From Actinocatenispora sera (lineage in GTDB: Bacteria; Actinomycetota; Actinomycetes; Mycobacteriales; Micromonosporaceae), in contig NZ_AP023354.1 of NCBI RefSeq assembly GCF_018324685.1, positions 5,766,001 through 5,830,000 of the forward strand: 64,000 nucleotides of DNA. The letters are read 5' to 3'. A program made the translations under genes and the position numbers. The notes under the pieces were generated by a model. The model saw only the letters and a program-made list of their open reading frames with translations, had not been told where the DNA came from and ran no database searches. Positions 4,225 to 15,209 of this stretch are shown here, piece after piece (position 1 is the first letter of the stretch; each line of letters opens with the position of its first letter).

Positions 4225-4974
4225 TCAGGCGCGGGGCAGGCGGAGGCCGACCATGCCGCCGTCGACCGGCAGCGCGGTCGCGGTGGTCGAGCCGGACGCC
4301 GGCGAGGCGAGGTAGCGGATCGCCCGCGCCACCTCGTCGGCGGTGACCAGCCGGCCGATCGGCTGCCGGGCCTGCAGCCGGGCCCGCTCCCCCGCCGGGT
4401 CGTCGGTACGCGCCAGCAGCCGCGCCACCCACGGCGTGTCCACGGTGCCCGGTTCCACGCAGTTGACCCGGATCCCGTCGGCGACGAAGTCGGCGGCCAT
4501 CGCCAGCGTCATCGCGTGCACCGCCCCCTTGGTCGCCGAGTACAGCACGCGTTGCGGCAGGCCGGCGGTGGCGGCGATCGAGGACGTGTTGACGATCGCG
4601 GCGCGTTCGCTGCGCCGCAGGTACGGCAGCGCGGCCCGGGTGGCGCGGGCCACCCCGACCACGTTGACGTCCAGGTTGCGGTGCCATTCGGCGTCGTCGT
4701 TGTCCGCGACGGTGCCGACCGAGCTGATGCCGGCGTTGTTGACCAGGATGTCGATGCCGCCGAAGGCGTCCGCGACCGCCGCCATCGCCGCGTCGAGCGC
4801 CGCCCCGTCGGTCACGTCCGCAGCCACCGGCAGCACGCCGTCCGCCGGTGCACCGGGGTGCACGTCGAGCGCGCCGACCCGGGCACCGGCGGCGACGAAC
4901 GCCTCCGCGCACGCCTTGCCGATGCCGGAGCCGCCGCCGGTGACGACCGCGACGAGCCCGTCCAACTCACCCAT
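4225..4974 (-). CDS. Short-chain dehydrogenase, probable 2-keto-3-deoxy-L-fuconate dehydrogenase
   Basis: 249 aa classical SDR. It shows TGGGSGIG near residue 13, the NNAG motif in ILVNNAGISS, the catalytic serine in NTSS and YSATK as YxxxK, and ends in a typical PVDGG(M) tail. Its start is 12 bases past the AOR stop, so it is the last gene of the fucose operon. In the non-phosphorylative L-fucose route an NAD-dependent SDR oxidises 2-keto-3-deoxy-L-fuconate to the 2,4-diketo acid, the substrate of the FAH-type hydrolase encoded in the same operon. The fold and active site are seen; the substrate is inferred from the neighbours. An alternative role as L-fucose dehydrogenase is possible. Confidence 0.8.
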   Translation of the reverse strand: MGELDGLVAVVTGGGSGIGKACAEAFVAAGARVGALDVHPGAPADGVLPVAADVTDGAALDAAMAAVADAFGGIDILVNNAGISSVGTVADNDDAEWHRNLDVNVVGVARATRAALPYLRRSERAAIVNTSSIAATAGLPQRVLYSATKGAVHAMTLAMAADFVADGIRVNCVEPGTVDTPWVARLLARTDDPAGERARLQARQPIGRLVTADEVARAIRYLASPASGSTTATALPVDGGMVGLRLPRA

Positions 4975-4986
4975 GCATTCCTCCGT

Positions 4987-7170
4987 TCAGGACAGTCCGA
5001 GCCTTCTCCGCAGCCGCGTGAGGGCAGCGGCGAAGCTTTCGGGGTCGAGTACCGCGCCGGCATGCGCCCCGGTCGCCACCGGCTCGGCGTGCATCCGGTA
5101 CGGCAGCCCGTCGGGCTCGGCGACGCCGAGCGCGGCGTTGATCCGGTGCTGCCGGCGCAGCCGCTCGGCACCCAGCTCCAGCAGCGCGGCGGTGTCCGGC
5201 CGGTACCCGGTGCCGGCGGCGACCAGCTCGCCGAGCAGCGCCAGGGACAGCGGCCGGGTCGGCGTCGACGCGTACGGGCAGATTCCGTACGCATCCAGCG
5301 CGGACCACAGCGCGAGCAGCACCGCGGTGCGGTCGGCCCGACCGGCGTCCAGCCGCTGCGCCGGTTCCGGTGCGGTCAGGCCGAGTTCGCGCAGCTGCGG
5401 CCAGCAGTGCGGGGCGCCGTGCACCGGGTCGAAGTCGAGGTCGTGCTCGACCGCGTCGTAGCGCGGCCCGGTCGGCGCGGCGGCGTAGGCGAGCGCGAGG
5501 CCGGGCTGCAGCCGCGGGTCGAACGGCGGCAGCTCGACGTCTCGTACGGTCATCGCGGCGTCCGCGACGCCGAGGCGGCGGGCGAGCCGGGCGGCGCCGT
5601 CGCGCAGCGCCGTGGCGAACTCGTCGTCGCCGTGCGCGGCGGCGGCGACGAACGGCGCGGGGTCGGTACCGAAGCCGCAGCGCGGCCAGCCGGCCGGGAG
5701 CCGACCTCGTTCCGCGGCCTCGTACAGGCAGCCGAGGGTGCCACCGACCGACACCGGGTCCAGACCGGCGTCGAGGCAGGCCGCGACCGCGGCGAGCACC
5801 GTGCCGGCGTCGTCGACGCCGAGGTTGGGGCCGAGCGCCGCAACCGCCTCCTGGTGCAGCGCGACCGGCGGGCCGGCCGGCGGCGCGAAGACCTTCAGGC
5901 AGTCGGTCGGGCAGTCGGGGCACGGTGCGGCGTCGCGGTAGCGGTCCAGGAACCGCTCCGGGGCGAGGCCGTCGCCGGCCGCGGTGGCGGTGTCGGCGAA
6001 GTTGCGGCGCGCGCCGTACCCGGGTGCCGCCTCGTACGGCCAGACGCCGAAGCCGGGCGGCTCGTGCTGCCAGGCGGTGAGCGGGTTGTCCGGCTGCTCG
6101 GCCCGGTAGCGCGCGGCGATCGCGGCCAGCCCGGCCGGATCCGGGGCCGGCGGTGGCGTGCCGGGCAGGCACACGATCGCGGTGAGGTTGCGGTCGCCCA
6201 GGATCGCACCGAAGCCGAGCCGCGCCAGCGGGAAGTACCGGTCGGTGAGGATCGTCGCGGCCCGGGCGCGGCGCCGGCCGGCCGGACCGATCACCGCGAT
6301 CCCGGCCCGCACGCCGTACCGGGCCCGCAGCGTCTCGGTGGCCGCGACCGTACCGGCGTCGGCCAGCTCGGCGGCATGCGGTTGGGCGGCCCCGTGCGCT
6401 TGGGCGGCCCCGTGGAATTTGGCGGCCTCGTGCGGTTCGGCGGCCCCGTGCAGTTCGGCGGACTCGTGCAGTTCGGCGGAGCCGTTGTGCAGCACCAGGA
6501 TCGACGGCCGGGCGGCGCGCCCGGTCAGTACCAGGGTGGCGGCGCCGGCCGATCGCAGCGCGGCGCCGAACGGCCCCTCGGCGCGCGTCTCACCGACCGC
6601 ACCGGACAGCGGGGACAGCCCGATCGCGGCGACCCGCGCGGTACCGGGTGCGCCGCTGCCGGCGAGCGGGCCGGCGGCGAGGATCAGCGGTACGGCGGGG
6701 TCGAACGGGTCACGGTGACCGGCGGCGACCGCGTCGGCGAGGATGCGCAGGGCGGCGAGCGGCGCCGGCTCACCCGCCGGGTCAGGGGGCCCGGCAGCGG
6801 CTGGACCCGCGGTCCCGGGCGGGCCAGGTAGCGCGGCGATGCCGGGAGCGTCCACCCTGTCCACAGCCCCCCGGGGTTGTCCACAGCCGGCCCGCGATCC
6901 GCTGCCACGAACCGAATCGCGGGCTATCGTTGTGCCGGGGTCGCCCCCCGGGAGGGTGGGGGAAGGTGTGTCGCGCGATCCACCCCCGGCCGCCCCACAG
7001 GCCGCCGGCGCCGCCTCAACCGGCACACCCGCACCGGCCGTCCCGGCCGACAGCACGACCGACTCGGCCGTCCCGGCCGACAGCACGACCGACTCGGCCG
7101 TCCCGGCCGACAGCACGACCGACTCGGCCGTCCCGGCCGACAGGGCGGCCAGGTCGACTCTCAGCGCCAC
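4987..7170 (-). CDS. Aldehyde:ferredoxin oxidoreductase (AOR) family protein with repeat insertions
   Basis: 727 aa against about 605-620 for usual AORs. The start is GTG at 7168-7170, overlapping the fuconate dehydratase stop; it gives VALRVDL, matching the LRVDL-type N-terminus of AORs. The cluster ligands are present: CPDCPTDC (CxxCxxxC) mid-protein and the distal cysteine in DAYGICP, the DxxGxC motif that also contacts the bis-pterin tungsten/molybdenum site. [13 protein letters not shown] and SPLSGAVGE match the N-terminal pterin domain. Two stretches are foreign to the family: a roughly 90-residue insert after residue 10 built on a 10-residue repeat, and a 6-residue His/Ala/Glu repeat further on. 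AORs oxidise aldehydes to acids with ferredoxin. Here the substrate could be fucose itself or lactaldehyde; this is inference. No ferredoxin partner gene is adjacent. Confidence 0.82.
6366..6483 (-). repeat. 18-bp minisatellite inside the AOR gene
   Basis: About seven 18-bp units with the core GGCGGCCCCGTGCNNTT (plus strand), phase-locked at 18 bases. On the coding strand they give a degenerate 6-residue repeat such as HGAAEP / HEAAKF / HGAAQA. Copies differ by a few bases, so this array is older than the 30-bp array near the start of the same gene. Confidence 0.85.
7037..7140 (-). repeat. 30-bp perfect tandem repeat inside the AOR gene
   Basis: Three identical 30-bp units (7051-7080, 7081-7110, 7111-7140) and a partial fourth at 7037-7050. 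In the coding frame they give a repeated 10-residue unit containing [10 protein letters not shown]. The perfect identity suggests recent expansion, or an assembly-sensitive region. Confidence 0.95.
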
Positions 7171-8456
7171 GCCGGCCCGTCCGGGTAGCGGTAGCGGGCG
7201 ATCGACTCCGGCTTGATCTCGGTGGAGAACCCGGGTACGGCCGGCGGGACGTAACGGCCGCGGTCGATCACGGCGGGATCGACGAAGTGCTCGTGCAGGT
7301 GATCGACGTACTCGATGACCCGCCCGGTCAGCGATCCGGACACGGCGACGTAGTCGAACATCGACAGGTGCCGGACCAGCTCGCACAGTCCGACGCCGCC
7401 GGCGTGCGGGCAGACGGGTACCTCGAACTTCGCCGCAAGCAGCAGGATCGCCACGTTCTCGTTGACGCCGCCGACCCGGGCGGCGTCGATCTGCACGATG
7501 TCGACCGCCTGCGCCTGCAGCAGTTGCTTGAACATCACCCGGTTGTGTACGTGTTCGCCGGTGGCGACGAGCGTCGGTGCCACCGCGCGCCGGATCGCGG
7601 CGTGGCCGAGCACGTCGTCGGGGCTGGTCGGTTCCTCGATCCAGTACGGCTTGAACGGCGCGAGGGCCGCCATCCACTCGATCGCGGCGGGTACGTCCCA
7701 GCGCTGGTTGGCGTCGACGGCGATGGGCAGGTCGGGGCCGACGGCGGCGCGGGCGGCGGCGAACCGGCGCAGGTCGTCGTCGAGGTCGGCGCCGACCTTC
7801 AGCTTGATCTGTCCGAACCCGTCGGCGACCGCCTGCTTCGCCAGCCGGACCACCTTGTCGTCGGAGTAGCCGAGCCAGCCGGGCGAGGTGGTGTAGGCCG
7901 GGTACCCGCCGGCAAGCAGCTGGGCGGCCCGTTCCGACCGGCCGGATACCTTGTCCCGCAACAGGTCCAGCGCTTCGTCCGGGGTCAGCGCGTCGGTCAG
8001 GTAGCGCCAGTCGACGAGGTCGACGAGCTGTTCGGGGGTCATCTCGGCGAGCAGCCGCCACACCGGCTTGCCGGCACGCTTGCCGGCGAGGTCCCAGGCG
8101 GCGTTGAGGATGCCGGCCGCGGCGAGGTGCATGACACCCTTCTCCGGGCCGAGCCAGCGAAACTGCGAGTCGTGCGTCAGCCGCCGGCCGAACTCGCCGA
8201 GGTCGGCGCACAGCGCGTCGACGTCGGTACCGATCACCAGCGGCGCCAGCGCACCGATCGCCGCGCACACCACGTCGTTGCCGCGGCCGATGGTGAACGT
8301 GAACCCGTGCCCGTCGGGTACCGCCGGATCGTCGGTGCGCAGCACCACGTACGCGGCGGAGTAGTCGGGGTCGGGGTTCATCGCGTCGGAGCCGTCCAGC
8401 TCCCGCGAGGTGGGGAACCGGATGTCCACGGTGTCCACCGCGGTGATCGTCGCCAT
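7161..8456 (-). CDS. L-fuconate dehydratase (enolase superfamily)
   Basis: 431 aa, full length. It dehydrates L-fuconate to 2-keto-3-deoxy-L-fuconate with Mg2+. The enolase-superfamily catalytic elements are visible: IKLKVG (KxK), the metal ligands in [18 protein letters not shown] and ATGEHVHNR, and [10 protein letters not shown]. The N-terminus ([20 protein letters not shown]) and C-terminus ([19 protein letters not shown]) are those of fuconate dehydratases, including the human ENOSF1 type. It starts 9 bases after the stop of the upstream hydrolase gene and overlaps the AOR start. This is the most specific assignment in the operon and anchors the pathway call. Confidence 0.95.
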
Positions 8457-8465
8457 GGTGCCGCC

Positions 8466-9323
8466 TTACGCGTTGATGAGGAGCTGGCGCTGCTCGCCGA
8501 GCCCGTCGATGGACAGCCGCATCGTGTCGCCCGCCGCCAGGTACGGGAAGCGGCCGGACAGCGCGACCCCCTGCGGCGTGCCGGTGTTGATCAGGTCGCC
8601 GGGCTCGAGCACCAGGTACTGCGACAGGTGCCAGACGAGGTAGCCGACGGTGAAGATCATGTCCGCGGTGCTGGAGTCCTGCCGCGGCTCGTCGTTGACG
8701 TACGAGCGCAGCCCGAGCTGCTGCGGGTCGCCGACCTCGTCGGCGGTGACCAGCCACGGGCCGAGCGGGTTGAACGTGGCGCAGCTCTTGCCCTTGGACC
8801 ACTGGCCGCCGGACTGCTCGTTCTGGAACGCGCGCTCGGACACGTCGTTGGACACCGCGTACCCGGCGACGCACGCCAGCGCCTGCTCGGGCGAGTCCAG
8901 GTAGGACGCCGTGCGCCCGATCACCACGCCGAGCTCGACCTCCCAGTCGGTCTTGACGCTGGTGCGCGGGATCGCCACCTCGTCGTACGGGCCGACGACG
9001 GTGTTGCTGCCCTTGTAGAACAGGATCGGCACGCTCGGCGGCGCGGAGCCGGACTCGGCGGCGTGCGCGGCGTAGTTCTGCCCGATACACAGCACCGCGC
9101 CGGGCCGGGCGATCGGCGCGCCGACCCGCTGCCCGGCGATGTCCACGTCGGGCAGTTCGCCGGCGGCGTGCGCGGCACGCACCCGCTCGACGCCGCCGCC
9201 GGCAAGGAACGCGCCGTCGATGTCGGCGGTGACCGGCGTCAGGTCGAGGTGGCGCTCGTCGTCGGTGCGCAGCACCGGGCGCTCGGCGCCGGGCGCGCCG
9301 ACCCGCATCAGCTTCACGTTCAT
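8466..9323 (-). CDS. FAH-family hydrolase, probable 2,4-diketo-3-deoxy-L-fuconate hydrolase
   Basis: 285 aa; ATG at 9321-9323 overlaps the upstream stop (ATGA). The fumarylacetoacetate hydrolase fold is clear from CIGQNYAAHAAE, ILFYKGSNTVVGPYD, the metal ligands in DWEVELGVVIG, NDVSERAFQ and DLINTGTPQGV. In the L-fucose pathway this acylpyruvase cleaves the 2,4-diketo acid to pyruvate plus L-lactate, which makes sense of the divergent lutABC genes. The fold is certain; the exact substrate rests on the operon context. Confidence 0.88.
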   Translation of the reverse strand: MNVKLMRVGAPGAERPVLRTDDERHLDLTPVTADIDGAFLAGGGVERVRAAHAAGELPDVDIAGQRVGAPIARPGAVLCIGQNYAAHAAESGSAPPSVPILFYKGSNTVVGPYDEVAIPRTSVKTDWEVELGVVIGRTASYLDSPEQALACVAGYAVSNDVSERAFQNEQSGGQWSKGKSCATFNPLGPWLVTADEVGDPQQLGLRSYVNDEPRQDSSTADMIFTVGYLVWHLSQYLVLEPGDLINTGTPQGVALSGRFPYLAAGDTMRLSIDGLGEQRQLLINA

Positions 9324-10222
9324 GCCTCCAGTCGGTAGGTGGTCCGCGCGGTGGTGCCGAAGATGGCTTCGCGCTCGGTGTCGGTCGTGCCGTCGGGCAG
9401 CGCGTCGCGCAGTGCGGCGAGTACCCGGCCGTAGTCGGCGGCGGTGGTGCACACCGGCCAGTCGGAGCCGAACATCAGCCGGTCGGCGCCGAACGCCTCG
9501 ATCGCGGCGGCCACGTACGGGCGCAGGTCGTCGACGCTCCAGCTGGCCCAGTTGGCCTCGGTGACCAGCCCGGACAGCTTCGCGGTGGCGTTGGGGCAGG
9601 CGGCGAGCGGCGCGATCGCGGTACGCCACTGTGCCAAGCCGGCGGCGCCGGCGGTGATGCGCGGTTTGCCCAGGTGGTCGAGTACGAACCGCAGGTCGGG
9701 GTGGGCGGTGGCGGCGCGGGCGGCGGCCGGCAGCTGGTCGACCCGGACGACGAGGTCGAAGGCGAGGCCGCTGTCGGCCACGGCGGCGAGGCCGGCGTGC
9801 GCGGCGTCGGTGTCCAGGAAGTCGGCGTCGACGCGGCCCTGGACCTGGTCGCGGATGCCGACGAGCTTGGCGGCGCCGGCCAGCGTGCGGTAGCCGGCGA
9901 GGGTGCCCGCGAGGTCGGGGTCGGTGAGGTCGGCCCAGGCCACGACGCCGGCGATCTCCGGCGTGGCGGCGGTGATGGCGAGGTGTCGGGGTACCTCCTC
10001 GGCCCGGCAGCACCCACCCTCGACCAGCACGGTACGAGAGACGCCGTGTGCGGTGAGTTCCGCGCGCAGGTCGTCGGCGGTGAACGGGCGGCGGATCGGG
10101 GCGAGTTCCGGCGCGTCGAGCCAGCCGTACCCCTGGTCGAGATCCCAGAGGTGGTGGTGGGCGTCGATCACGACGTACCCGAACTCTGCCGCAGGGTGAT
10201 CGGATGTATCGGCCGGCGTCAC
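9320..10222 (-). CDS. Amidohydrolase, probable L-fucono-lactonase
   Basis: 300 aa from GTG at 10220-10222, overlapping the aldo-keto reductase stop as GTGA. The metal-dependent hydrolase (TIM-barrel amidohydrolase, COG3618) signature is visible: DAHHHLWD (HxH) near residue 21, VLVEGGC, FVLDHLGKP and the late FGSDWPV aspartate. Members of this group hydrolyse L-fucono-1,5-lactone and related sugar lactones to the acid, the step between the fucose dehydrogenase and fuconate dehydratase encoded either side of it. A longer frame exists upstream, but it would overlap the neighbouring coding sequence. Confidence 0.87.
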   Translation of the reverse strand: MTPADTSDHPAAEFGYVVIDAHHHLWDLDQGYGWLDAPELAPIRRPFTADDLRAELTAHGVSRTVLVEGGCCRAEEVPRHLAITAATPEIAGVVAWADLTDPDLAGTLAGYRTLAGAAKLVGIRDQVQGRVDADFLDTDAAHAGLAAVADSGLAFDLVVRVDQLPAAARAATAHPDLRFVLDHLGKPRITAGAAGLAQWRTAIAPLAACPNATAKLSGLVTEANWASWSVDDLRPYVAAAIEAFGADRLMFGSDWPVCTTAADYGRVLAALRDALPDGTTDTEREAIFGTTARTTYRLEA

Positions 10223-11208
10223 GGCGTCGGTACCCCTTCCCGCAGCAGATTCTCCGCCTTCAGCTCGGACCATAGCGCGGAAGGGATCGGATGTGTGAAC
10301 ATGGCTGCGTTCTCTTCGATCTCCGCCACACTGCGCGCACCGATCGCCACGGAGGCCACCGCCGGATGCCCGAACGGGAACTGGATCGCCGCGGCGGCAA
10401 GCGGCACCTGGTGCCGGGCGCACACCGCGCCGATTCGCCGGGCCCGCGCCACCAGCTCGGCCGACGCCGGCACGTAGTCGAACGTGGCGCCCGGCCGCGG
10501 GTCGGCCAGCAGCCCGGAGTTGTACACCCCGCCGGCGATGATCGCGATGCCCTTCGCCGCGGCGACCGGCAGCAGGTCGGCCAGGCCGCCCTGGTCGAGC
10601 AGGCTGTAGCGGCCGGCCAGCAGGAAGCAGTCGAAGTCGCCGTCGCGCGCGAAGTCGGTCAGCATCGCCGACTGGTTCATCCCGGCACTGACCGCGCCGA
10701 TCACCCCCTGCTCGCGCAGGTCGTGCAGGGCCCGGTACGCACCGTCCAGCGCGGCCGGGTAGTGGTCGTCCGGGTCGTGGATGTGTGCGATGTCGATCCG
10801 GTCCACGCCGAGCCGGCGCAGGCTGTCGTCGATGCTGCGCAGCGTCGCGTCGTAGGAGAAGTCGAACACCGGCTCCATCCCCGAGTCCTCGACGTAGAAG
10901 TCCTGCGCCACGGCGTTGGCAGCGGTACCGCGCGGCACCAGCATCCGGCCGACCTTGGTGGCGAGCACGTACCCGTCGCGGTCGAGCCCGGCGAGTCCGC
11001 GACCGAGGCGGCGTTCGGCCAGGCCGGCGCCGTACAGCGGGGCGGTGTCGAACAGCCGCAGGCCCAGGTCGAAGGCCCGGCGGACGGTGTCGACGGCGGC
11101 CTCGTCGCCGACCGCGTCGTACAGCCCGCCGAGCGGTGCCGTGCCCAGCCCGAGCCGGGTGACCTGCAGGTTCGTGCGGCCGAGCCGGATGGTGCCGGTC
11201 GGGTCCAT
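10219..11208 (-). CDS. Aldo-keto reductase, probable L-fucose (D-threo-aldose) 1-dehydrogenase
   Basis: 329 aa from ATG at 11206-11208 with a strong GAGGAGGAAAG RBS. AKR catalytic residues are in place: Asp and Tyr in LFDTAPLYGAG, Lys in LATKVGR and His in DIAHIHDPDDHY. Full-length matches to the D-threo-aldose 1-dehydrogenase group are expected from GLGTAPLGGLYDAV and AAAIQFPFGHPAV. It would oxidise L-fucose to the lactone with NAD(P)+. It is the first gene of the leftward operon, 30 bases from the divergent operator. The fold is seen; the substrate comes from context. Confidence 0.88.
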   Translation of the reverse strand: MDPTGTIRLGRTNLQVTRLGLGTAPLGGLYDAVGDEAAVDTVRRAFDLGLRLFDTAPLYGAGLAERRLGRGLAGLDRDGYVLATKVGRMLVPRGTAANAVAQDFYVEDSGMEPVFDFSYDATLRSIDDSLRRLGVDRIDIAHIHDPDDHYPAALDGAYRALHDLREQGVIGAVSAGMNQSAMLTDFARDGDFDCFLLAGRYSLLDQGGLADLLPVAAAKGIAIIAGGVYNSGLLADPRPGATFDYVPASAELVARARRIGAVCARHQVPLAAAAIQFPFGHPAVASVAIGARSVAEIEENAAMFTHPIPSALWSELKAENLLREGVPTP

Positions 11209-11962: not shown

Positions 11963-12693
11963 GTGCGGATCGGTCTGTTCGTCACCTGCGTCAACGACCT
12001 GATGTACCCGGGCACCGGGCAGGCGGTGGTCTCCATCCTGCGGCGGCTCGGGCACGACGTCGACTTCCCGGCCGCGCAGACCTGCTGCGGCCAGATGCAC
12101 GCCAACTCCGGCTACCGGGCCGAGACGATGCCGCTGCTGCGCCGGTTCGTCGACGTCTTCGAGCCGTACCAGGCGATCGTCGCGCCGTCCGGCTCGTGCG
12201 CGGCGATGGTGCGCGAGTCGTACCCCCGGCTGGCCGCCGACGATCCCGCCCTCGCCGCACGCGTCGCCGCCCTCGCCCCCGGGTGTACGAGCTGTCCGAG
12301 CTGCTGGTCGACGTGCTCGGCGTGACCGAGCTGGGCGCCGAGTTCCCGCACCGGGTCACCTACCACCCGACCTGCCACGGGCTGCGGATGCTGGGGCTGG
12401 GCGACAAACCGCTGCGGCTGCTGCGCTCGGTGGCCGGCATCCGGCTGGTCGAGCTGGACGCGGCCGAGCAGTGCTGCGGCTTCGGCGGTACGTTCGCGCT
12501 GAAGAACCCGGACGTGTCGACCGCGATGCTCGCCGACAAGGCCCGGCACGTGCTCGACACCGACGCCGAGGTCCTCGCCGCCGCCGACAACTCCTGCCTG
12601 GCGCACATCGCCGGCGGCCTGACCCGGATGCGCACCGGGGTGCGCGCCATGCACTACGCCGAGATCCTCGCCACCACCGGAGGTACCCGATGA
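11963..12693 (+). pseudogene. lutA: LutA-type (Fe-S) lactate utilisation subunit, interrupted by a frameshift
   Basis: GTG start 4 bases after the GntR stop, with AAGGAG upstream. Codons up to about 12280 encode the first CCG domain (FVTCVND, QTCCGQMHANSG, PSGSCAAM). The reading then continues as RVYELSELLVDVLG one frame over and holds the second CCG domain (YHPTCHGLRM, EQCCGFGGTFA, DNSCLAHIAGG). Restoring one C in the five-C run at 12276-12280 rejoins the frames as LAPRVYELSEL with nothing missing (about 243 aa). The gene is otherwise intact and conserved, so either a sequencing error or a very recent mutation. LutA would be one of the Fe-S subunits of L-lactate oxidation. Confidence 0.88.
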
Positions 12694-12758
12694 GGCGCAC
12701 CGGCACGACCAGCACCGCACCGAGGTCCCGCCCGGTACCGAAGGGAGCACGCCGATGA
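12690..12758 (+). CDS. Micro-ORF bridging lutA and lutB (22 aa)
   Basis: ATG at 12690 overlaps the lutA stop (ATGA), has a near-perfect GGAGGT RBS five bases upstream, and its own TGA overlaps the lutB ATG (ATGA). It reads MRRTGTTSTAPRSRP and is Arg/Thr/Pro-rich with no recognisable domain. It fills the whole 61-base gap between lutA and lutB, so it may serve mainly to carry ribosomes from one gene to the next. The RBS and overlaps are seen; function is unknown. Confidence 0.45.
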   Translation: MRRTGTTSTAPRSRPVPKGARR

Positions 12759-14557
12759 GCGTCGATCCTCGAGGTAGGCGGCTGCTTCCGGTGCTGCCGC
12801 ACGGATCCGGACACCTGGCGCCGCCGCAACCGTTCCCGCAGCGGGCCCGGGCCGCGGTGGCCGACCCGCAGTTGCGGGCCAACATCCGGCGCGCCACCCG
12901 CACCATCCGCGACAAGCGCGCCGCCGCGGTGTCCGAAGTGGACGACTGGGAGCAGTTGCGGGAGGCCGGCCGCACCATCAAACGCCGGGTCGCCCGGCAC
13001 CTGCCGGAGCTGCTGGAGCGCTTCGAGCAGGCGGCGATCGCGGCCGGCGCCACCGTGCACTGGGCCCGCGACGCCGTCGAGGCCAACCGGATCGTCACCG
13101 ACCTGGTCCGGGCCACCGGCAGCGACGAGGTGGTCAAGGTCAAGTCGATGGTCACCCAGGAGATCGAGCTCAACGACGCCCTGCAGCGCGCCGGCATCAC
13201 CGCGTACGAAACGGATCTGGCCGAGCTGATCGTCCAGCTCGACGAGGGCGAGCAGTCGCACATCCTGGTCCCGGCCATCCACTACAACCGGGCCGAGATC
13301 CGGGAGATCTTCCGCCGCGAGATGCCCGACGCGCCGGCCGACCTCACCGACGAGCCGGCGGTACTAGCCGAGGCAGCGCGGCGCCACCTGCGGCGCAAGT
13401 TCCTGTCCACGAAGGTGGCGATCTCCGGCGCGAACTTCGCGGTCGCCGACACCGGCAGCCTGGTGGTGCTGGAGTCCGAGGGCAACGGCCGGATGTGCCT
13501 GACCCTGCCGGAGACGCTGATCAGCGTGGTCGGGATCGAGAAGCTGGTACCCAGCTTCGCCGACCTGGAGGTGTTCCTGCAGCTGCTGCCGCGCAGCTCG
13601 ACCGCGGAGCGGATGAACCCGTACACCTCGGTGTGGACCGGCAGCACGCCCGGCGACGGGCCGAGCGACGTGCACGTCGTGCTGCTGGACAACGGCCGGT
13701 CGGCGACGCTCGCGGACACCGTGGGACGGCAGGCGCTCGCCTGCATCCGCTGTTCGGCCTGCCTCAACGTCTGCCCGGTGTACGAGCGGACCGGTGGGAT
13801 CGCCTACGGCTCGGTCTATCCCGGCCCGATCGGCGCGATCATCTCGCCGCAGCTGACCGGCGTGGCCGCGAACAAGTCCCTGCCGTACGCCTCGTCGCTG
13901 TGCGGCGCCTGCTACGAGGTCTGCCCGGTCAAGATCGACATTCCGGAGGTGCTGGTCCACCTGCGGCAGTCCGGTGTGGACGGTGCCCGGGATCGCCCCT
14001 CGGCCGAGCGCACTGCGATGCGCACCCTGTCCTGGGTGATGTCCGACCAGCGCCGGTACGAGAACGCGCTGCGCGCGGCGCGCATCTCCACCGGCCCGAT
14101 CGCCTCGGTCACCGGCCGCGGCCGGCGCCGGCGCCCGGGCGGCCCCGCCGGCAGCCTCGCGCACCTGCCGTGGCCGCTGTCGGCCTGGACCACCTCCCGG
14201 GACGCGCCGCTACCGGCCCGCCAGTCGTTCCGGGACTGGTGGCGCGGCCAGGCCAGCGGACCAGGACGTCCGACACCAGACGCCGCGGGCGCGGCCCGAC
14301 CGCAGGCGGACCCGGGCATCGACCGCGATCCCGGTGCCGCACGGCCGGGTCCCGGTGCCGCACCGCCTGATTCCGGTGCGGCACGACCGGATCCCGGTGC
14401 GGCACCGCCTGATTCCGGTGCGGCACGACCGGATCCCGGTGCGGCACCGCCTGATTCCGGTGCGGCACGACCGGATCCAGGTGCGGCACGGCCGGATTCC
14501 GGTGCGGCACGGCCGGATTCCGGTGCGGCACGGCCGAAGGAGGGCGGCGATGAGTGA
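12755..14557 (+). CDS. lutB: LutB iron-sulfur lactate utilisation subunit with a repetitive C-terminal tail
   Basis: 600 aa, longer than the usual 470-490. The N-terminal LUD domain is clear (VVKVKSMVTQEIELNDAL, GANFAVADTGSLVVLE, PETLISVVGIEKLVPS). Two ferredoxin-type clusters follow: CIRCSACLNVCPVY and CGACYEVCPVKI, separated as in LutB. After about residue 500 the protein becomes an Ala/Pro/Asp repeat not typical of the family, encoded by a 21-bp minisatellite. ATG at 12755 follows an AAGGGAG RBS. It forms the core of the membrane-associated L-lactate oxidation complex with LutA and LutC, and would use the L-lactate made by the fucose pathway. Confidence 0.95.
   Translation: MSVDPRGRRLLPVLPHGSGHLAPPQPFPQRARAAVADPQLRANIRRATRTIRDKRAAAVSEVDDWEQLREAGRTIKRRVARHLPELLERFEQAAIAAGATVHWARDAVEANRIVTDLVRATGSDEVVKVKSMVTQEIELNDALQRAGITAYETDLAELIVQLDEGEQSHILVPAIHYNRAEIREIFRREMPDAPADLTDEPAVLAEAARRHLRRKFLSTKVAISGANFAVADTGSLVVLESEGNGRMCLTLPETLISVVGIEKLVPSFADLEVFLQLLPRSSTAERMNPYTSVWTGSTPGDGPSDVHVVLLDNGRSATLADTVGRQALACIRCSACLNVCPVYERTGGIAYGSVYPGPIGAIISPQLTGVAANKSLPYASSLCGACYEVCPVKIDIPEVLVHLRQSGVDGARDRPSAERTAMRTLSWVMSDQRRYENALRAARISTGPIASVTGRGRRRRPGGPAGSLAHLPWPLSAWTTSRDAPLPARQSFRDWWRGQASGPGRPTPDAAGAARPQADPGIDRDPGAARPGPGAAPPDSGAARPDPGAAPPDSGAARPDPGAAPPDSGAARPDPGAARPDSGAARPDSGAARPKEGGDE
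14331..14536 (+). repeat. 21-bp minisatellite in the lutB 3' end
   Basis: Ten units, spaced exactly 21 bases apart, each beginning with or close to CCGGTGC (14331, 14352, 14373 and so on to 14520). They encode the heptad GAARPDP/GAAPPDS, with the two versions alternating in the middle so that a 42-bp superunit is visible. In frame throughout and ending just before the lutC RBS. Confidence 0.95.
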
Positions 14558-15209
14558 GGCGCGCGCCGAGATCATGGCCCGGCTGCGGACGGCGCTGCGC
14601 GACGTGCCCGCCGACGAAGCGATCGAGGACGCACCGGTGGCCCGCGACTACCGGCGGGACGGCACCGGCGCCGACCCGGCGCGGCTGCGCGACCTGCTCG
14701 CCGACCGGGTCGCGGACTACCGCGCCACCGTGCACCGCTGTGGCGCCGACGAGCTGGCAACCACCGTCCGCACGATCCTCGCCGGGCACGAGACCGCGAC
14801 CCTGCTCGTTCCGCACGACCTGCCGGACGACTGGCACGCCGGGTACACCGGCACGATCTACCGCGACTCGGCGAACTTCCCGTACCCGCTGGCCACCCTC
14901 GACGCGACCGACACCGTACTGACCGGCTGCGCGGTGGCGATCGCCGAGACCGGCACGCTGGTGCTGGACGCCGGGATGGCGCAGGGCCGACGCGCGATCA
15001 CCCTGGTACCCGACCATCACGTCTGCGTGGTCGGCGCCGACCAGGTCGTCGGTACGGTGCCCGAGGCGCTGGCCCGGCTGGATCCGGTGCGGCCGTTGAC
15101 GTTCGTCGCGGGCCCGTCGGCCACCAGCGACATCGAGTTCGACCGGGTCGAGGGCGTGCACGGGCCTCGCCACCTCGACGTGGTCCTGCTGCACGGAGCC
15201 CCGGGCTAG
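14550..15209 (+). CDS. lutC: LutC lactate utilisation subunit (LUD domain)
   Basis: 219 aa; ATG at 14550 overlaps lutB by 8 bases, with a GAAGGAGG RBS inside the end of lutB. The single LUD domain shows LLVPHDLPDDW, TGCAVAIAETGTLVLDAG, ITLVPDHHVCVV and the late GPSATSDIEFDRVEGVHGP, the standard LutC end. It completes the lutABC set for L-lactate to pyruvate oxidation. A short hairpin (15249-15267) follows. Confidence 0.95.
   Translation: MSEARAEIMARLRTALRDVPADEAIEDAPVARDYRRDGTGADPARLRDLLADRVADYRATVHRCGADELATTVRTILAGHETATLLVPHDLPDDWHAGYTGTIYRDSANFPYPLATLDATDTVLTGCAVAIAETGTLVLDAGMAQGRRAITLVPDHHVCVVGADQVVGTVPEALARLDPVRPLTFVAGPSATSDIEFDRVEGVHGPRHLDVVLLHGAPG

Follow-up and report, generated by a model that had tools for sequence, protein, structure and literature searches.

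The window analyzed here, a stretch of 64,000 nucleotides from Actinocatenispora sera, carries on its reverse strand an uninterrupted open reading frame (positions 4987–7170) encoding a 727-residue oxidoreductase of the aldehyde:ferredoxin oxidoreductase (AOR)/tungsten oxidoreductase (WOR) family. Its GTG start codon (7170–7168) lies within the gene for a fuconate dehydratase-type enolase superfamily protein (FucD; 7161–8456), the two genes overlapping by 10 nt with the stop codon counted, and an SDR gene (4225–4974) begins 12 nt past the AOR stop, which is the arrangement that the original prediction had described. The SDR is likely a 2-keto-3-deoxy-L-fuconate dehydrogenase, its substrate and that of FucD being assigned by context. 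Also on the reverse strand are an FAA hydrolase, likely acting on 2,4-diketo-3-deoxy-L-fuconate (8466–9323; NCBIfam NF053535 at 279.8 bits, under the cut-off of 500), an Amidohydro_2 protein that is likely the L-fuconolactonase (9320–10273; start codon uncertain), and an aldo-keto reductase (AKR; 10222–11208) that by sequence similarity is likely an L-fucose dehydrogenase. Judged by family and similarity, these five genes (FucD, AKR, lactonase, FAA hydrolase and SDR) constitute an oxidative L-fucose cluster, and the neighbors of the AOR gene cover the other pathway steps, as had been proposed. In its commonly described form, the oxidative L-fucose pathway is not known to include an AOR. A divergent run on the forward strand (12196–15209) encodes part of LutA together with LutB and LutC, for L-lactate utilization. 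A 21-bp tandem repeat of 10 copies (14327–14536) at the overlap of the LutB and LutC frames is an in-frame expansion like the repeats in the AOR gene.

The protein belongs to the AOR/WOR superfamily, as is evident from its two domains, its fold, four cluster cysteines and an equivalent of Asp489 of the Pyrococcus furiosus AOR. The Pfam domains AFOR_N (E = 3.2e-37) and AFOR_C (E = 1.4e-40) are both found, the latter match being the single one in a profile search of the A. sera genome, and the AFOR_N alignment begins at profile position 33, leaving the first 32 profile positions unmatched. An AlphaFold2 model built from 24 aligned sequences has a mean pLDDT of 78.6 and a pTM of 0.80, the majority of its core blocks scoring over 85, and a Foldseek search of the PDB gave nine matches at E < 0.001, all of them AOR-family chains (target TM 0.69–0.82; 19–24% identity); PDB entry 9q1t matched by sequence alone. 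The first strand (residues 2–6) is modelled confidently, and residues 18–132 are disordered (pLDDT < 50). Here lies an insert of about 122 residues (residues ∼10–131; 6778–7143, reverse strand) that A. rupis and Catellatospora lack and that contains a 30-bp tandem repeat in 3.6 copies (7035–7143) located by repeat search. An additional in-frame tandem repeat, of 18 bp in 5.7 copies (6377–6479), has no counterpart seen in the aligned relatives. That the insert is a dispersed repeat element is not supported, as the A. sera genome holds the insert itself and two weak partial matches. In one relative (G050; L051, 8100–8330) the start-side frame of the AOR fails to cross the insert, and a later start, damage and an assembly slip are indistinguishable as causes.

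The Fe-S cluster ligands of the P. furiosus enzyme are conserved in the window AOR, as the original prediction had anticipated. The motif CPDCPTDC (5899–5922, reverse strand) provides Cys417, Cys420 and Cys424, equivalent to the cluster ligands Cys288, Cys291 and Cys295, and the motif DAYGIC (5278–5295, reverse strand) provides Asp626, equivalent to Asp489, and Cys631, the equivalent of Cys494 and fourth cluster ligand. The predicted cofactors of the enzyme are a bis-pterin center with tungsten or molybdenum and one [4Fe-4S] cluster. The pterin cofactor can probably be made, since moaA was above the cut-off in all 15 genomes queried, although moaA is a common gene. The description of the protein as a full AOR with CxxCxxxC and DxxGxC motifs stands as far as both motifs, both domains and the fold are concerned, and requires qualification on three counts: the N-terminal insert together with the unmatched start of AFOR_N, the loss of Asp338 (the first Asp of an upstream DxxGLD motif in the P. 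furiosus AOR) and the replacement of three of the four second-shell residues.

These four residues, Thr243, Glu313, Tyr427 and His448, are described in two reviews as varying little in most aldehyde-oxidizing members of the family (PMC13328260; PMC12096430), and three of them, Thr243, Tyr427 and His448, are given roles in a proposed mechanism of aldehyde oxidation (PMC12096430). By alignment, the window AOR lacks the complete set. Phe374 (6049–6051) occupies the position of Thr243 and Phe550 (5521–5523) that of Tyr427, Glu441 (5848–5850), the equivalent of Glu313, is the sole residue retained, and the position of His448 is Tyr in one alignment and a gap in another, the alignment around it not being unique. 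In the region where other AORs have His448 there is instead a 13-residue signature, GPRY(D/E)xxEHDxDF (5431–5469, reverse strand), which in the window reads GPRYDxxEHDLDF. The same pattern holds across an actinobacterial clade represented by 33 rows, two pairs of which are identical sequences and from which the genome G010 was left out. Position 243 is Phe in 32 rows and Tyr in one, so that Thr is replaced throughout; position 313 is Glu in all 33; position 427 has Phe in 31 rows, the other two, both mycobacterial, having Tyr; and position 448 is Tyr in all 33 in the wider-tree alignment and a gap in the other, for which "not His" is the safe statement. The signature, also written GPRY..(V/I/L)EHD.DF, is present in 33/33 clade rows and in 0/23 other rows, which have Thr243 in 17 cases and His448 in 17 and include one haloarchaeal row that lacks the cluster cysteines. 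Since the second shell of the clade is rebuilt, plain aldehyde oxidation cannot be assumed. All of the actinobacterial subfamily shares the rebuilding, a hint of a redox step in sugar breakdown that has yet to be described. A differently altered second shell (Asn/Leu/Glu/His/Tyr at positions 243/312/313/427/448) is found in six of the 23 other rows, from the same phylum (f52 genomes; L126–L131).

The fucose-cluster AORs of the Micromonosporaceae form their own clade, a point that the original prediction had proposed to check (16 rows, 100/100; tree 1), and are joined next by those of the Streptosporangiales (99/99) and then by those of Mycobacterium (100/100). Tree 1 gave a long-branch warning where the canonical actinobacterial AORs join the subfamily, and this join is gone in the wider tree 2, in which the subfamily is recovered with 33 rows (100/100) and the canonical actinobacterial AORs are a separate clade. 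A quick tree 3 with extra mycobacterial rows, supported by SH-aLRT values only, agrees. Tree 1 omits L025 (incomplete), L043, L044 and a partial P. furiosus row; tree 2 omits L031, L032, L034, L036–L041, L046 and YdhV, and drew on 13 of the 19 phylum loci other than that of the window (one, L140, yielded no open reading frame) and on 4 of the 25 listed plasmid matches; and tree 3 omits 11 further named rows.

The prediction that the AOR–FucD gene pair would recur was borne out, and with it the suggested tie of the AOR to fucose use: FucD lies near the AOR in 16 of 17 loci from Micromonosporaceae and in one of four mycobacterial loci, as against 0/13 in Streptosporangiales and 0/4 canonical loci. 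In the Micromonosporaceae, 13 of 121 genomes and 4 of 44 genera have a PF01314 match, and FucD (E 1e-100) occurs in 97 of the 121, including all 13 with an AOR, so that most FucD-bearing genomes of the family are without one. Counted with six query genes at a minimum of 40% identity within 7 kb, in a table that leaves out G515 (37% identity), the 17 AOR loci have FucD in 16 cases, AKR in 16, SDR in 15, FAA hydrolase in 13, LutB in 11 and lactonase in 10, some of the stretches stopping short of the lactonase. The order FucD-AOR-SDR is seen in Actinocatenispora and in five of the six Actinoplanes-type loci, A. solisilvae having no SDR within 7 kb, and none of these six has LutB within that distance. 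Catellatospora has the order lutABC-AKR-AOR with FucD-SDR divergent, and in six loci of this genus the AKR directly adjoins the AOR. The AOR is present in five of the seven FucD-bearing Catellatospora genomes listed, and the two without it retain lutABC-AKR, FucD, SDR, FAA hydrolase and lactonase, from which it follows that the AOR is dispensable for retention of the pathway. A different arrangement, lutBC-AOR with a 4-nt overlap of lutC and AOR, occurs in G042 (L048, 6238–8552), where an α-L-fucosidase gene lies about 6 kb away and none of the other fucose-pathway query genes, including FucD and AKR, is within 7 kb.

Outside the Micromonosporaceae, at E 1e-60, an AOR relative is found in 4 of 248 Mycobacterium genomes, one of which (G1081) encodes within about 15 kb the AOR, the lactonase, an FAA-hydrolase-family gene, FucD (62%), an ABC transporter for sugars, GntR, AKR (51%), FAH (63%) and SDR (59%); its AOR (L154, 7459–9336) has 36% identity to that of the window, carries the clade motif and has its fourth cluster Cys replaced by Ser. 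Just past this AOR come two genes of the phage integrase family. The other three mycobacteria have an AKR beside the AOR, truncated in G1038 where the contig stops, a β-eliminating lyase after it and no FucD within 7 kb; in two mycobacterial loci the AKR is the immediate neighbor. The order AKR-AOR-β-eliminating lyase is covered by L009, L010, L155 and L156, with an amino acid permease nearby in L009. In the family of G417, to which the Streptosporangiaceae belong, 17 of 200 genomes gave an AOR match at E 1e-60, and stretches were taken for twelve (two plus ten; G628, G604 and G670 were left out). The 13 Streptosporangiales loci, two of which, L008 and L050, are limited by short flanks or an incomplete AOR, and among which the AORs of L008 and L015 are identical to two others, include four with a fuconolactonase-type amidohydrolase at ≥40% identity within 7 kb and nine with none of the six query genes on these terms. 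Among the nine, an amidohydrolase is adjacent at 37% in L114 and 3.9 kb away at 39% in L015. In Streptosporangiaceae the next gene with the orientation of the AOR encodes such an amidohydrolase in L114, L121 and L122, and in L116 it is the nearest same-strand gene; some Streptosporangiales loci have an SDR and an E1-α-type gene instead. A scan for the ferredoxin-type motif CxxCxxCxxxC within 7 kb of the 33 clade AORs, which would miss ferredoxins with other motifs and in which the flanks of L008 and L156 are short, returned, LutB aside, just very short frames or frames overlapping other genes, and this is also the result for the window.

The core of the AOR is under purifying selection and the insert under little constraint. 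When A. sera is paired with A. comari and with G050, omega is 0.75 and 0.58 for the insert versus 0.24 and 0.27 for the core, and it reaches 0.51 for the core versus the more distant A. rupis. Omega of the AOR exceeds that of FucD in 11 of 12 pairs and that of the SDR in 11 of 11. Several AORs from Winogradskya and Actinoplanes (L011, L012, L014, L026 and L027) are only ∼500–575 residues long and lack the domain-2 helices. That they are pseudogenes is supported neither by their omega values (0.165 and 0.199) nor by the modelled fold of L012 (pLDDT 81, pTM 0.87), and they are possibly the smallest members of the AOR family. In G010 (L025/L053), an in-frame loss covers two of the four cluster cysteines.

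Replacement of the AKR by the AOR can be rejected. All 15 queried genomes, which were chosen as AOR-bearing, have an AKR homologue, including G1081, in which a stretch of 18 kb had seemed to contain none and the gene lies in the same cluster, 8.6 kb from the AOR. The positions that we take to be the catalytic tetrad of the AKR are intact in 22 of 22 aligned loci, with and without an AOR, and so there is no sign that one enzyme takes the place of the other. A relaxed AKR in AOR-bearing Catellatospora was also considered and set aside, the tetrad being intact with and without the AOR despite omega values of 0.34–0.55 in places.

We propose, with a probability of about 0.4, that the window AOR oxidizes C1 of the aldose and serves the oxidative (non-phosphorylated) L-fucose pathway as an optional, accessory enzyme. 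The genes for sugar C1 oxidation, AKR and lactonase, are its most recurrent company, across three families, and as the AKR tetrad is intact in all loci, a parallel, ferredoxin-linked oxidation of C1 is the most economical role. Working alongside the NAD(P)-dependent AKR/lactonase route, the AOR would turn the aldose, in its open-chain or its cyclic hemiacetal form, into the lactone or acid. Glu441 would serve as the base, a ferredoxin would receive the electrons by way of the [4Fe-4S] cluster, and a polar, polyhydroxylated substrate would be accommodated by the remodelled pocket (Phe374, Gln440, Phe550 and GPRYDxxEHDLDF). The gene, its fold, the cluster ligands, the clade, the changed second shell, the recurrent clustering and the purifying selection on the core are observed; metal, substrate, acceptor and direction are inferred. 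Against C1 oxidation are the AKR and lactonase already present, the former in 15/15 queried genomes, the two Catellatospora genomes that keep the cluster without an AOR, the nine of 13 Streptosporangiales loci without query genes, the three of four mycobacterial loci with a β-eliminating lyase and no FucD within 7 kb, the replaced Thr243, Tyr427 and His448, the lack of a ferredoxin-type gene nearby in the motif scan, and the core omega of 0.51 versus A. rupis. The altered pocket could equally mean a reaction other than C1 oxidation. A broader proposal, which we regard as possible though doubtful, is that the clade is a tungsten- or molybdenum-dependent, oxygen-tolerant sugar dehydrogenase subfamily, marked by Phe/Gln/Glu/Phe and GPRY(D/E)xxEHDxDF, that would oxidize aldoses in aerobic actinobacteria and couple L-fucose use to low-potential carriers beside the NAD(P) route.

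The lactate genes suggest another substrate, a short pathway-linked aldehyde, most simply L-lactaldehyde, which the AOR would oxidize to L-lactate for conversion to pyruvate by LutABC. The AOR follows lutC in G042, with an α-L-fucosidase nearby and neither FucD nor AKR within 7 kb, is the last gene of the run lutA-lutB-lutC-AKR-AOR in Catellatospora, and in three mycobacteria adjoins the β-eliminating (threonine-aldolase-type) lyase, a possible source of aldehyde. However, the clusters hold the SDR and FAA-hydrolase branch, and this branch of the fucose pathway gives lactate directly; moreover, LutB is missing within 7 kb of the AOR in 6 of the 17 loci from Micromonosporaceae, every one of them Actinoplanes-type, and substitutions affect the second-shell residues that simple-aldehyde enzymes have. 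Such a role is unlikely, if well worth keeping in view. The same replacements (Thr243 in 33/33, Tyr427 in 31/33, and His448 by Tyr in one alignment and by a gap in another) would suit some other reaction of two electrons, such as a reduction or the redox conversion of a sugar acid or keto acid, for which a Class V WOR reported to have no aldehyde activity (PMC13328260) is a precedent. We think this rather unlikely, given that Glu313 and the cluster are retained, that the Tyr, His, Asp and Glu of the new motif could substitute for the lost residues, and that no low-potential donor system is recognized beside the gene among its neighbors or in the CxxCxxCxxxC scan.

That the gene is decaying, with little or no catalytic role, would account for the in-frame repeats and insert in Actinocatenispora, the discontinuous start-side frame of G050, the cysteine losses in G010 and G1081, and an omega above those of FucD and SDR that reaches 0.51 in the core versus A. 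rupis. It is nonetheless decidedly unlikely, as the core is constrained versus near species where the insert is not, the shortened forms have low omega and one is modelled well, and the signature is kept in all 33 clade rows (G010 not included). Finally, the optional presence of the gene, in 13 of 121 genomes of the family, might be that of a hitchhiker with no tie to fucose, but similar company in differing orders (FucD-AOR-SDR, lut-AKR-AOR with divergent FucD, and mycobacterial lactonase-AOR) in two families renders this very improbable.

Compared with AOR sensu stricto (P. furiosus 1aor, the electron-bifurcating AOR 9mqx, Clostridium autoethanogenum 9g7j and Aromatoleum 8c0z), the window AOR shares the fold, the four cluster cysteines and the equivalents of Asp489 and Glu313 at 21–24% identity in structural alignment, and differs in the replaced equivalents of Thr243, Tyr427, His448 and Arg182, the loss of Asp338, the interrupted N-terminus and the sugar cluster around it. 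The statement that AORs are best known from strict anaerobes is dated, in that BmWOR, a Class I WOR of clade 83, was purified from the obligate aerobe Brevibacillus massiliensis, and is described in passages of PMC9424855 as a single subunit with ferredoxin as acceptor and a preference for aromatic and other food aldehydes; its likeness to the window AOR is drawn from that description. Class I appears to be defined by a large subunit without partner subunit genes; the named neighbors of the window AOR are sugar and lactate genes, and LutB was the one ferredoxin-type gene given by the CxxCxxCxxxC scan. An aerobic tungsten oxidoreductase is thus already known (PMC9424855), and what is new is the changed second shell and the GPRY(D/E)xxEHDxDF motif of the clade. 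The subfamily may sit unnamed inside the published tree of 92 WOR clades, only five of which include a member whose physiological role has been defined, according to PMC13328260, whose main text makes no mention of actinobacteria, mycobacteria, fucose or sugar. Our literature search, outside of which fell subscription papers and supplementary tables, found nothing that joins the AOR family to fucose in actinobacteria or fuconate to a ferredoxin oxidoreductase. The subfamily recurs in a catabolic setting, bears a sharp signature in its active site and is carried by named type strains, so that its role is testable, and if the sugar reading is true, a metal-pterin step would be added to aerobic sugar breakdown and the second-shell set of the aldehyde-oxidizing members would be replaceable as a block.

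The canonical actinobacterial AORs belong to the same phylum and superfamily as the window AOR and retain, in the 11 rows compared (L030–L040, with L041 excluded), Thr243, Tyr427 and His448 in 11/11 and Glu313 in 10/11, with Gln in L036. Four canonical loci were searched for the six fucose and lactate genes, and none had any within 7 kb of the AOR, although the stretch for one of them (G173) stops 0.7 kb past the AOR. Unlike the window AOR, all four are adjoined by a large Fe-S protein, a long open reading frame with CxxCxxCxxxC motifs that is perhaps a dehydrogenase subunit taking the electrons of the AOR; in L056–L059 this frame contains two such motifs.
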